This document shows positions 42,988 through 49,984 of a stretch of DNA of 57,054 bases, one piece after another (the first letter of the stretch is position 1; every line of letters starts with the position of its first letter). The notes below the pieces were generated by a model, which was not told the DNA's origin, made no database searches, and was given only the letters and a program-made list of their open reading frames with translations. Source of the stretch: Chthonomonadaceae bacterium. GTDB taxonomy: Bacteria; Armatimonadota; Chthonomonadetes; Chthonomonadales; Chthonomonadaceae. A program made the position numbers and the translations under genes. Location: assembly GCA_025352825.1 (NCBI GenBank), contig JANXSG010000036.1:1-57054 (forward strand), written 5' to 3'.

Positions 42988-43931
42988 ATGCCAGAATCGT
43001 ACGCTAGATTATACAAACCTGTTTTGCAACAGGTTGTTGCAAAAGCAAATCGCAGCCTGTTGGTTTATTTCCAAGGTATACAAGCGCTTCGAGATAACCT
43101 CGACAACGACCCAGAATCTAAAACGCGTAATCTGGTGGTGACAGTCGATGGAGCATATACCAACCGAGAAGTGTATAAATCGACCCCTAAGCATACGGTC
43201 ATCATTGGAAGAATACGCAAGGATGCCCAGTTCTTTGGAAAGTCAGAGAAGCGGGAACAGGGAAGAGGGCGGAAGCGCCTATACGGTGAGAAGCTGCCGA
43301 CACCGGAAGCAGTAAGGCAAGATGAAGAGATACCATGGCAGCAGATAGTCGCATATGCAGCGGGCAGTCAGTCCATGTTCGGTGTTAAGATTGTTAAAGG
43401 TGTGCGATGGAAACCGGCAGGAGGATGCAATCTAGCTAATGGTCATTCATCCTGTAGGCTACAGACCAACAAAGGGGAGCAGAATGCTGTACCGTGAGCC
43501 AGGATATCTGATATATACAGAAGCTGAATTACCAGTAGATCAGCTTCTCCAGGCGTATCTATGGAGATGGGAGATCGAAGTGAATTTCAGGGAAGAGAAA
43601 ACTGTGATGGGATTGGGGCAGGCACAGGTTAGAAAGAAGAATTCTGTCGAAAACACGAGTGCCTTCATCGTAGCTTGTTAAGCTATAATGCATGTAGCAG
43701 CATCAAAGATAGGGCTTAATAAGTACAGGACTGCCTCTGCCAAGGTGGAGAGAGCGGAAACCACCAACGAGATGCAGCACGAACCAATTGATAAGCAGAA
43801 TTAGAGCAGAAATGTGGGGGCGGGCATTAAATCTGAATAAAAGTGGCTTTGAGTCTACAATATCCATATTGCAAAGCCCTCAAAATTCAATCGGCACATT
43901 TGCGTCAGCCGTATTATACGCTTTTCAATAG
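42988..43931 (+). pseudogene. DDE transposase remnant, multiply broken
   Basis: Fragments of one transposase lie in order: VVTVDGAYTNREVYKSTPKH (first catalytic Asp), IIGRIRKDAQFF, GVKIVKGVRWKPAGG. A frameshift near 43435 follows, then VIHPVGYRPTKGSRMLYREP and YLWRWEIEVNFREEKTVMGL (catalytic Glu). A stop at 43679 is followed by ASKIGLNKYRTASAKVERAE. A further shift near 43765 leads to LISRIRAEMWGRAL and IGTFASAVLYAF plus stop at 43931. At least two frameshifts and one nonsense codon are present, and the N terminus appears truncated at 42988. The family resembles IS4/IS701-type DDE transposases. I could not find convincing terminal inverted repeats. Confidence 0.82.
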
Positions 43932-45906: not shown

Positions 45907-46184
45907 TTTTATATCCGGCCATGACCTGAGTAATAACCACGCTTCCCGATAAGGTTAAACGATAGACGGCAGAACCTACTGCTCTTCGGAAGTTCACTCA
46001 CGAGGCTGATGGTATGCACCATGTGCCAATGACTGCAGAGGCAAATAAGAATACTGCGTTGAAGCGATAATTGGAAAATAACTATCAATAGAGTATAATG
46101 CTATTGAGAAGAGCATAAGCTCACACACTTTATAACCCGTTTGATAACATTATCAAGACTTAAAATAATGTAGGAGACAACCGC
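45907..46184. other. Intergenic region
   Basis: No gene, hairpin or repeat is recognisable in this 278-base gap. AGGAG (46172-46176) is the ribosome binding site of the next gene, and the AT-rich stretch before it may hold its promoter. Confidence 0.4.
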
Positions 46185-49100
46185 ATGAGTTTCGACGAAC
46201 TCCCGCCGAACTCGAAGCGCCGCACTCGAACGCGAGCAGCTTCAGAGAACGAGGCGGAAGCGTCCTCGCCGGATGCGCCGTCCGCCGCTCCGAAACGCCG
46301 TCCTCGTATCAAGGCCGCTGAGACAGCAGCAGATATTTCTCCTGCTCAATCAACTGATGACACGACACCTCGGCCTGTTCGAAGCAGGCGAAAAAAAGTC
46401 GTTGAACATGCCGAGACATCTCCCAGTCATGTCACGCCTGAAATACAGCCTTCACTAACTGACATGTCTGAAGCTGTGAATCAGGCTCCCCTGGCTGAAA
46501 AACGGAGGCGTGCGCCTGTTAAAACGAAATCCTCAGAAATAAACACTGAGGCAAGTCAACCCACCCTTGACACTACTGAATCTGTAGTACCCTCACCGCT
46601 TAGTCGTCGCAATATCCGAAACAAAACAAAAGTTGATTCTCTGCCGCCAGCGCCTGCGGAATCGGCTTCGGAAACATCCGACCACGCACCCATTAAACCA
46701 AAACCTACGGTGCGTCGACGCGGGGTAAAACCGTCTGTGGAAGAGATAACACTGGCTTCACCAGAGTTATCGGAAGCCTCAGGATCGGAAGTTTCACCAG
46801 AATTATCACCTCCGGAACGCACCAACAGGCGGCGACGCCCTGCAAGGAAACGACGCCCAGGCGATACAACATCGGAAGAAATCCCTACGCCAACAGATAC
46901 ACCAATCTCGACAGAAGAGTCAGCAGAATCCGACACAGAAACGCCGTCCTCTCCAGCACGTTCACGCAGACGAAGGGGCGGCCGTGGCAAACGAAGCGAG
47001 CTTGTAGCAGTTCCCTCAGAGGCAGAAGTCGAAATTCCGGTCGAACCTACTGAGTTTCAGGCTGCAAAAATTGAGGAAGAACATGAAGCCAAGGTAGACC
47101 GAACCATCGGTGCGCATCTTGTGATGCGGCACGGCTGCCCGGAAATCCACATTAACGGCGCTATCTATCCGCCTGTCATATTTTTCGGGAATCTAGATGC
47201 CGAACAGAATCGCGGCAAAGTTGTATCTGAGATACGCCGTGCCGCAAGCGCTGGGATACATCTGCATTCTACAATCATAGAACTAGTCTGTCCACTATCA
47301 GAATCTTCAGGACATTTCGATGAAATCGTTCTGCGACTGAAAACGGTTCTGGAAGCTGATCCTGAAGGATTTATAATTCCACGCATAATTTTTGTGCCGG
47401 CAAAAGGCTGGAAACGCGAAAATCCCGCTGAAGTGGCTGCATACGCGGATGGCACATCTGGTGATCCCTCAATTACTAGCGAGAAATTCTGGCAGGAGAG
47501 TGTCCTCTCACTTACAGCGCTCATTGATCATATTCAAAGCAGTGAATGGGGTAGCCGTGTATTCGGGTATCACCTGGAGAAAGGAGAGTGGTTCCAGCCT
47601 TCTTCCCAGGGATACGATCGAAGTCCTGCGAATAGAGACGCATTTCGGGGTTGGCTGAAAGACAAGTACAAGCATAATTTAGTGACATTGCGTGCAGCCT
47701 GGTATGATGGCGATATTCAGTTTCATACTGCAGAAATTCCTGCTCAAATTTTGAAGCCGAATCCCAGCAGAGCCTTTTTCGAAACACGCAGAGATCGGCG
47801 CTATATCGATTTTCATGAGTTTACGGCAGAAAGTACGGCCCGAAGAATCATAACGCTTGCTCGCGCTGTGAAAAAAGCCTCTCATAACCAGGCGATAACA
47901 TCTGTGTGTTATGGCTACACCTTTGATTTTGGCCATCCCTACAACGGGCATCTTGCATTGGGAATGCTGTTAGCCACTTACGTTATCAATCTTATCTGCG
48001 GTCCGCCATCATACAGAGACAGAAAGCTTGGAGGATCGGCAGATTTTCCATCCCCTGTCGATTCCATGCCTCTCCATGGCAAACTATGGTTATCTGAAGA
48101 CGATACGAAAACATTTCTATCGCCTGCGGAACAAGACCCAGAAGATTTTAATCCGCGATTTTCAGATAGGATATCTACGGAATATGCGCATGACCGCGCC
48201 ATAGGTAACGCATATGCCCACGCGGCAGGAACTAGCTGGATGGATCTATGGGGAGATGGCTGGCTAGACGATGACTTGATATGGGATCGCATCAGAAAGT
48301 TCAAGGATCGATTTTCATCGTTCACTGCACATCGCGAAAGAGCCCGAGTGCCTGAAGTGGTGGCTCTAATAGATGAAAAGAGCCTGCTGCATATTCAGCA
48401 CGGAGAGACATTCTTTCGGAATCTGACCAATGGACTGCGTGAAACGCTTCACCGTGCAGGTGTATCGTACGGAACCTATCTTCAGAACGATATTCTGGCA
48501 AAGGATTTCCCAACCGAAGCGAAACTCTATCTGTTTCTCACACCTTTCCGATTGACCTCCGAACAGAGGTCGGCCATCAAAGAAAAACTGCAGACATCTG
48601 GGAAAACTCTAGCATGGCTCTACGCACCTGGTGCCTGTGAAGAGAGGCCGTCTATTGGCGGGTTGATGGAGGAGTCTTCTGCAGGAGTGACAGGGTTTAC
48701 ACTGCGACAGCAGGCGTGGAACTCCGAGATGGGCTCTAGGATTATTGACTCAAGGCACGCTCTTACGGATCGCCTGAACAGCAGAGAATTGGGAACACGT
48801 GAGCGCCTCAATCCATCTTTTTATGTGGATGATGAGGCTGCAGTAAATCTGGCTGAATACCAATCTTCCTGTCTGACCTCTCTCGCTGTGAAAGAGTTGG
48901 ATGGATGGAAATCAGTCTTTGTCGGCGATCCTGTGCTGCCGCTGGAACTTCTGCGTGGTATCTGCAGATATGCTGGGGTTCATCTCTGGACTCCTCAAGG
49001 TGATGATGTAGCCTCGATTGGTAATGGTTTTGTTACCATACATGCCAACAGCGATGGCGGTCGAACTCTCCATCTTCCAGACTATACGGCACTATATGAC

Positions 49101-49643
49101 ATGTGCACAGAAAGATTAATTTCGGACAATATTCGAGAGTATAGATACTCTATGAAAGCCGGCGCAACGCAGTCATTCTTTGTGGGGCAGATTGAAAAAA
49201 TGCAGCGTATAGGTCTTCCGAATCTGCCTCCTGTTAGTTTTAATCGGCGAAGAGGTGCACAGCCGGAGCTTACTCGCTCGATACCTCCTGTCCATGACAG
49301 CAACAGGTTAGACGAAGTCTATCCAGATCCGTTCAGTGAGGATATAGCCACCCTTGAAGCGGTACTCTCTGTGGACTTAAGCTCCGTGAATGAACTTGAG
49401 TTCTACCAGCTGGAAGATGATGAAGCATTTCTGGCAACCATCAATACCGGTACTCTTCCGCCAGCATCTGCAGAAGAGACTTTAGCCGCTGGGGAAGCGC
49501 TCTCAAGCGGCAGAAGACGTCGAAGGAGAGGTGGCAGAGGGAGAGGCAGAAATCGCGTTCCTGGAGAGTCAGCGGAAGGAGCCGAAGCCGACAATACTCA
49601 ATCAGCTGAAAATGAGAGTGAAATCTTTCCTAAGGACTTGTGA
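46185..49643 (+). CDS. GH42-like glycosidase-fold protein with arginine-rich disordered ends
   Basis: A 1152-residue protein. Residues 1-305 are low-complexity, rich in Arg, Lys, Pro, Ser and Glu, with basic patches RTNRRRRPARKRRPGD and SRRRRGGRGKRSE. Residues 306-720 look like a GH42-type TIM barrel: HINGAIYPPVIFFGN, RVFGYHLEKGEWFQPS (E465/E468, acid-base region), FRGWLKDKY, LHGKLWLSEDD (E638, candidate nucleophile region). Residues about 725-850 match a GH42 trimerisation-type domain (AKLYLFLTPFRLTSEQRSAI, GKTLAWLYAPGA). The C terminus has GRRRRRRGGRGRGRNRV. No signal peptide is present. Tails like these usually bind RNA or other polyanions, so the cellular role may not be plain sugar hydrolysis. 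Catalytic residues are inferred from position. Confidence 0.78.
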   Translation: MSFDELPPNSKRRTRTRAASENEAEASSPDAPSAAPKRRPRIKAAETAADISPAQSTDDTTPRPVRSRRKKVVEHAETSPSHVTPEIQPSLTDMSEAVNQAPLAEKRRRAPVKTKSSEINTEASQPTLDTTESVVPSPLSRRNIRNKTKVDSLPPAPAESASETSDHAPIKPKPTVRRRGVKPSVEEITLASPELSEASGSEVSPELSPPERTNRRRRPARKRRPGDTTSEEIPTPTDTPISTEESAESDTETPSSPARSRRRRGGRGKRSELVAVPSEAEVEIPVEPTEFQAAKIEEEHEAKVDRTIGAHLVMRHGCPEIHINGAIYPPVIFFGNLDAEQNRGKVVSEIRRAASAGIHLHSTIIELVCPLSESSGHFDEIVLRLKTVLEADPEGFIIPRIIFVPAKGWKRENPAEVAAYADGTSGDPSITSEKFWQESVLSLTALIDHIQSSEWGSRVFGYHLEKGEWFQPSSQGYDRSPANRDAFRGWLKDKYKHNLVTLRAAWYDGDIQFHTAEIPAQILKPNPSRAFFETRRDRRYIDFHEFTAESTARRIITLARAVKKASHNQAITSVCYGYTFDFGHPYNGHLALGMLLATYVINLICGPPSYRDRKLGGSADFPSPVDSMPLHGKLWLSEDDTKTFLSPAEQDPEDFNPRFSDRISTEYAHDRAIGNAYAHAAGTSWMDLWGDGWLDDDLIWDRIRKFKDRFSSFTAHRERARVPEVVALIDEKSLLHIQHGETFFRNLTNGLRETLHRAGVSYGTYLQNDILAKDFPTEAKLYLFLTPFRLTSEQRSAIKEKLQTSGKTLAWLYAPGACEERPSIGGLMEESSAGVTGFTLRQQAWNSEMGSRIIDSRHALTDRLNSRELGTRERLNPSFYVDDEAAVNLAEYQSSCLTSLAVKELDGWKSVFVGDPVLPLELLRGICRYAGVHLWTPQGDDVASIGNGFVTIHANSDGGRTLHLPDYTALYDMCTERLISDNIREYRYSMKAGATQSFFVGQIEKMQRIGLPNLPPVSFNRRRGAQPELTRSIPPVHDSNRLDEVYPDPFSEDIATLEAVLSVDLSSVNELEFYQLEDDEAFLATINTGTLPPASAEETLAAGEALSSGRRRRRRGGRGRGRNRVPGESAEGAEADNTQSAENESEIFPKDL

Positions 49644-49672: not shown

Positions 49673-49693
49673 CCGGGAGTTTTCAACTCCCGG
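49673..49693. repeat. Hairpin CCGGGAGTT-TTC-AACTCCCGG
   Basis: A perfect 9-bp stem with a three-base loop, 30 bases after the preceding stop. The same motif occurs as GGGAGTTGGAAACTCCC at 50830-50846 and, degenerate, at 8526-8542. Confidence 0.65.
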
Positions 49694-49744
49694 AAATTGA
49701 CGAATATAGGATTACTTTCACAATCGACTTTGTCGAGATGCATT

Positions 49745-49984
49745 ATGCCGCAAAATCTCACTTCTAAACAGATGATTGCATTCAAAATAGGCGCTCGCGC
49801 CCGCAAGTTTGCATTTGAAGGATTCGCTATAGAAGGTTACGAGTATCTCTATACCGCACTGGAAGAGTCGAAAACTGACGATCAGGAACTTCATCATTTA
49901 TTGGGATTGGAGCTTAATAAATTGGAAAAATGCATTTCCGATCTCGATGAACAAGAAACCAGAGAGTTGAAACACGTTGATTGA
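49745..49984 (+). CDS. Small conserved-looking hypothetical protein
   Basis: A 79-residue, largely helical acidic protein beginning MPQNLTSKQMIAFKIGARAR, with a predicted amphipathic C-terminal helix (LGLELNKLEKCISDLDEQET). I do not recognise a family. The ATG at 49745 is preferred over the start of the longer frame at 49640, which runs through a hairpin repeat. Its stop overlaps the start of the PHP phosphatase gene by 8 bases, suggesting coupled translation and a possible functional link. Confidence 0.6.
   Translation: MPQNLTSKQMIAFKIGARARKFAFEGFAIEGYEYLYTALEESKTDDQELHHLLGLELNKLEKCISDLDEQETRELKHVD

Follow-up and report, generated by a model that had tools for sequence, protein, structure and literature searches.

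A GH42-like protein with arginine-block arms, conserved in Armatimonadota, as a possible cytoplasmic scaffold for RNA or another polyanion

Introduction

In Caulobacter, Arg-rich charge blocks in the tail of RNase E drive the formation of RNA-dependent condensates, the BR-bodies (PMC10412687), and in cyanobacteria a C-terminal nonapeptide of RNase E binds PNPase (PMC10989914). The protein described here has a glycosidase fold, with GH42 beta-galactosidases as its best structural matches, and carries an arm of a related kind on each side of it. The fold is known and so is the type of arm; their conserved combination is undescribed in the sources that we searched, and a literature search returned nothing joining Armatimonadetes, beta-galactosidase and arginine-rich.

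Results

The gene and its protein

The window analyzed in this work is the whole 57,054-nt stretch of contig JANXSG010000036.1 from a Chthonomonadaceae bacterium (Armatimonadota). The gene of interest is preceded by a Shine-Dalgarno-like sequence and a putative promoter:

46185..49643, + strand, ORF of the tailed GH42-like protein (1152 aa, ATG start, stop included)
46173..46176, + strand, Shine-Dalgarno-like GGAG found in the sequence 8 nt 5' of the ATG
46071..46099, + strand, sigma-70-like promoter match TTGGAA-17-TATAAT upstream of the tailed GH42-like gene (consensus match only)

Neither a signal peptide nor a membrane segment is visible in the sequence of the 1152-aa protein, so that the statement of the sequence-only reading that a signal peptide is absent still holds. 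A fragment like a DDE-superfamily transposase (PF13546, below cut-off) is found upstream of the gene at window positions 42988-43497 (+), within a stretch poor in long ORFs. On the other side of the gene, an inverted repeat CCGGGAG/CTCCCGG without a T run is located at window positions 49674-49694, between the tailed gene and a 79-aa ORF.

GH42-like core and candidate catalytic residues

The central part of the protein consists of a barrel and two accessory domains, and two Glu residues are candidates for the catalytic pair:

47100..49229, + strand, GH42-like three-domain core, residues 306-1015 (AF2, Foldseek)
47586..47588, + strand, Glu468, candidate general acid/base in a GEW motif, invariant in Chthonomonadales
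48096..48098, + strand, Glu638, candidate nucleophile in a SEDD motif at the end of beta-7, invariant in Chthonomonadales

The barrel had been called GH42-like from the letters alone, and three lines of evidence agree with this. Pfam PF02449 (GH42) matches with 23.8 bits against a cut-off of 21 (E 3.4e-5), at residues 478-578 only; the AF2 model of the core, built on an alignment of 25 cores, has a pLDDT of 90.2 and a pTM of 0.92; and the top Foldseek matches are all GH42 enzymes, spanning all three domains with TM scores of 0.60-0.67 at ~12% identity, the best being GH42 Gan42B (TM 0.67). PF02449 is matched at E 0.001 by just 8 of the 25 ortholog cores. NCBIfam holds no model that matches the query or covers the tailed family, and TIGR00757 (RNase E/G catalytic domain) finds a separate gene in the genome. 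E468 and E638 are taken to be the Glu pair of strands beta-4 and beta-7, judging from where they stand in the sequence and from the predicted strands. An Asn immediately before the acid/base Glu is a hallmark of clan GH-A. In a hand alignment to GH42 sequence, most orthologs have Gly just before the aligned acid/base Glu.

Disordered arms with Arg blocks

The core is flanked by two long arms that contain Arg-rich patches and a short predicted helix:

46185..47078, + strand, N arm, residues 1-298, disordered polyampholyte (AF2 pLDDT below 50, composition, conserved start)
49230..49640, + strand, C arm, residues 1016-1152, disordered and acidic, containing an Arg/Gly block (AF2, composition)
46965..46994, + strand, N-arm Arg/Gly patch RRRRGGRGKR, residues 261-270 (sequence motif)
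49512..49550, + strand, C-arm motif RRRRRRGGRGRGR, residues 1110-1122 (conservation in 18 Chthonomonadales)
49335..49367, + strand, short predicted C-arm helix, residues 1051-1061 (AF2; recurs in family f1)

Structure prediction, which had been proposed as a check, returned a confident three-domain core and arms with pLDDT below 50 (residues 1-298, 1020-1049 and 1066-1152 of the full-length AF2 model), from which the disorder of the arms is deduced. The sequence-only reading had described the 300 residues before the barrel as basic and the tails at both ends as arginine-rich. The arms are predicted to be disordered and do contain Arg blocks, but they are not net basic: the 298-residue N arm has 53 K+R vs 51 D+E (net +2), with eight clusters of three or more R/K, and the 137-residue C arm carries a net charge of -10. 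Both arms are charge-blocky polyampholytes, about neutral overall and not simply basic. Compared with composition shuffles, 71 of the 77 C arms and 48 of the 77 N arms have a strongest positive block that goes beyond the shuffled sequences.

The 4.87-Mb host genome contains the pattern RRRRGG[R/S]G just twice, both times within the tailed GH42-like gene, and in relatives this pattern mostly tags the same gene via different synonymous codons. A tandem DNA repeat beneath the Arg tracts was looked for and none was found. With no such repeat and a motif unique to the gene, repeat expansion and a genome-wide Arg bias were rejected as the origin of the Arg tracts. In the C arm, R1111-R1115, G1116, G1117 and R1118 (R5-G2-R), and also R1120, are invariant in 18 of 18 Chthonomonadales, as are E468 and E638 of the core (n=18). 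The C-arm helix segment recurs in family f1 as (D)LETL-AVL-M, and the modelled helix is a possible linear binding motif. An extra C-terminal [FW]R[KR]-like motif is present in 33 sequences of the Fimbriimonadia-side families. The C arms of family f22 (for example L148, L149 and L152) show a conserved FDVPIMKLDEW segment together with a C-terminal FRKR motif, and both are possible partner-binding linear motifs.

Distribution, orthologs and paralogs

A core profile search detected near single-copy, mostly full-length orthologs in ~161 (a hand count from the match listing) of 291 Armatimonadota genomes. The survey for tails and barrel together, another of the proposed checks, found both across 11 Armatimonadota families. 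Nearly all sampled genomes of the host's family and order have an ortholog at 41-62% identity, and both arms are present in nearly all of the 77 analyzed sequences. Of 39 distant and 10 low-scoring full-length sequences inspected, almost every one has an arm on either side: N arms span 120-450 aa, and C arms run from ~30 to 360 aa and as a rule contain an Arg block. The C-arm Arg block is absent in two f2 orthologs and one f21 ORF and degraded in L023, and L162 has almost no N arm in its frame.

Arms of this type had been considered very unusual for a glycosidase fold, and the paralogs bear this out: the 18 secreted paralogs examined (30-35% identity) are without arms, and by eye they have signal peptides or extra N domains. 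The arms are thus not a trait of all GH42-like proteins in the phylum. In the tree the tailed clade is monophyletic with respect to the untailed paralogs, which form a separate clade (support 100), and the tailed protein is inherited vertically. A single genome-contig scan, run with one query sequence, gave matches solely in Armatimonadota. Judged from the sequences, the arms are ancient and conserved at the protein level.

Gene neighbourhood

In all 19 loci of families f21, f22 and f24 that have enough downstream sequence (the twentieth, L171, ends at the contig end), era is the next gene downstream, with a spacing of 0-12 bp in 17. A HAD phosphatase gene is upstream of the tailed gene in 17 loci. 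In f3, a Chthonomonadales family, mtaB is next downstream in six of eight contexts. Neighbours vary by family, and several f1 genomes have a fab operon upstream instead of RNA genes. In the window the tailed gene is followed by a small ORF:

49745..49984, + strand, 79-aa small ORF (no Pfam match above cut-off)

This conserved ORF family is found in roughly half of the Chthonomonadales genomes sampled, and in 14 of the 15 genomes possessing it, window included, an ORF of 71-79 aa directly follows the tailed gene. A functional operon read from the window alone was rejected; the PHP (HisJ-like) gene downstream does not recur next to orthologs. The era, mtaB and small-ORF neighbours suggest a role that may lie near RNA metabolism.

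Loss of the catalytic Glu and selection on core and arms

Both Glu are kept in 65 of the 77 analyzed sequences. The other 12, all from the Fimbriimonadia-side family f22 (L178-L187, L155 and L175), have one or both replaced; 12 of 77 is not a frequency, because low-scoring genomes were deliberately chosen for the Glu survey. Where they are replaced, position 468 has N, S, P, G, I or R and position 638 has L, M or D. At least two loss events are needed on the tree, and both arms are retained in all 12 sequences, which by their residues constitute a putative natural pseudoenzyme series: Glu-replaced cores with intact arms. The era adjacency is present in L155 and L175, both without either Glu.

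Pairwise dN/dS ranges over 0.11-0.45 in the N arm, 0.02-0.5 in the C arm and 0.01-0.21 in the core. The core value is 0.01 in the pair L178/L179, where E638 alone is lost, and 0.02 in L180/L181, where both Glu are lost. N-arm sequence between the Arg blocks is 40-78% identical between close pairs.

Discussion

We tentatively favour, with a confidence just short of even, the reading that this protein is a cytoplasmic scaffold conserved in Armatimonadota, in which a GH42-like core displays Arg-block arms that bind RNA or another polyanion. Since the Glu pair is lost in some lineages while the arms are kept, we argue that binding or scaffolding, and not sugar cleavage, is the constant role; the repeated loss of putative catalytic residues, together with the RNase E-like organization of the arms, makes this the most economical constant function. 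In such a protein the barrel and its two accessory domains would carry the long disordered arms, and the Arg and Arg-Gly blocks would bind RNA or a comparable polyanion. Linear motifs of the C arm (the short helix and, on the Fimbriimonadia side, the FRKR-like terminus) would recruit partners in the style of the RNase E charge-block tail. The glycosidase pocket, intact in most lineages, may yet serve to cleave a sugar ligand or to sense one. It would nevertheless be dispensable, one or both Glu being gone in at least two lineages whose core and arms remained under selection. We infer the RNA or polyanion binding, the scaffolding and any link to the ribosome or to tRNA maturation from these features. 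Points against the scaffold reading are that the arms are not net basic, that Arg blocks have many possible ligands, that 65 of the 77 analyzed sequences keep both Glu, that the C-arm Arg block is missing or degraded in two f2 orthologs, one f21 ORF and L023, and that the neighbours differ between families, as with the fab operon in f1.

The main competitor is a working intracellular glycosidase, whose arms just deliver the enzyme to an anionic or nucleic-acid-linked glycoside or to a membrane glycan, the Glu-less lineages being recent specializations. The closest folds are active GH42 enzymes and both candidate Glu are invariant in Chthonomonadales; because most of the analyzed sequences (65/77) keep the pair, the majority of species may use the protein mainly for catalysis. 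As an account of the protein as a whole we nevertheless find it somewhat unlikely. One or both Glu disappeared on at least two occasions in lineages that kept the arms, the core is under strong constraint in two such pairs (dN/dS 0.01 and 0.02), era stays adjacent in L155 and L175, and the gene neighbourhood suggests no cytoplasmic substrate; the clan GH-A Asn also appears to be absent, at the position given by the hand alignment to GH42 sequence. Arg blocks bind many things, such as DNA, polyphosphate, acidic lipids and proteins. Arms that bind DNA or another polyanion (polyphosphate or an anionic membrane) instead of RNA would make the protein a nucleoid- or membrane-associated scaffold, and the Arg/Gly and Arg/Ala/Pro blocks, which are not RNA-specific, are compatible with that; we consider it unlikely, with the neighbours era and mtaB, which act on RNA, weighing weakly in the other direction.

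Could the arms be fast-drifting low-complexity spacers or solubility tails with no specific partner? The quick divergence of N-arm sequence between the blocks and its spacer-like composition would fit, but the invariant R5-G2-R of all 18 Chthonomonadales, positive blocks beyond those of shuffles, dN/dS well below 1 and the retention of arms in 11 families make this very improbable. A misassembled N terminus, or homologs without tails in the same context, had been named as findings that would speak against the tailed protein. Misassembly is excluded, because the start MS-x-DE recurs in most same-family orthologs, which come from independent genomes. Start, arms and reading frame are common to these genomes, the orthologs share the start and the arms, and with no supporting point found the chance of an artefact, whether a misassembled or a misannotated N terminus, is practically negligible.

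The scaffold reading has a more specific form, in which the protein is an Armatimonadota RNA-scaffold hub that serves RNA decay, the assembly of ribosomes or tRNA maturation. Its base would be a glycosidase core and not a ribonuclease, the RNase E-type arms would be placed here and not on RNase E/G, and in some lineages it would be a pseudoenzyme. We regard this form as doubtful. If the arms bind RNA, a large part of a bacterial phylum uses a glycosidase fold as a conserved RNA scaffold, scaffold arms with Arg blocks need not belong to a nuclease, and there is a testable handle on RNA organization in a poorly studied phylum. Natural pseudoenzymes would separate the role of the pocket from that of the arms.

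Among known systems, the GH42 beta-galactosidases (Gan42B, 4oif; A4 beta-gal, 1kwg) share the three-domain fold along the entire core (TM 0.60-0.67), and the query has Glu at the positions that probably correspond to their acid/base and nucleophile. The tailed proteins differ from them in the low identity (~12%), the weak PF02449 coverage, the long arms, the loss of Glu in some lineages and the apparent lack of the clan GH-A Asn at the hand-aligned position. The next-best fold match, the GH164 beta-mannosidase Bs164, is weaker (E 1e-14) and has no arms. The secreted Armatimonadota GH42-like paralogs belong to the same core family (30-35% identity), and most have Glu at both positions; they differ in the signal peptides or additional N domains seen by eye, in having no Arg arms and in forming their own clade. 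Similar tails on the RNase E/G of the same genome were sought and rejected for the six Chthonomonadales genomes inspected, in which RNase E/G has no such tails, only an insert in the S1 region. At these loci (L209, L195, L200, L201, L203 and L205) the internal insert is variable, acidic and Arg-containing. The tailed protein is unlike RNase E in having no nuclease domain and in bearing an arm on either side of a glycosidase fold. The proposed resemblance to RNase E-type proteins is one in kind: like the noncatalytic tails of RNase E, the arms are disordered and charge-blocked, with Arg-rich patches and short linear motifs.
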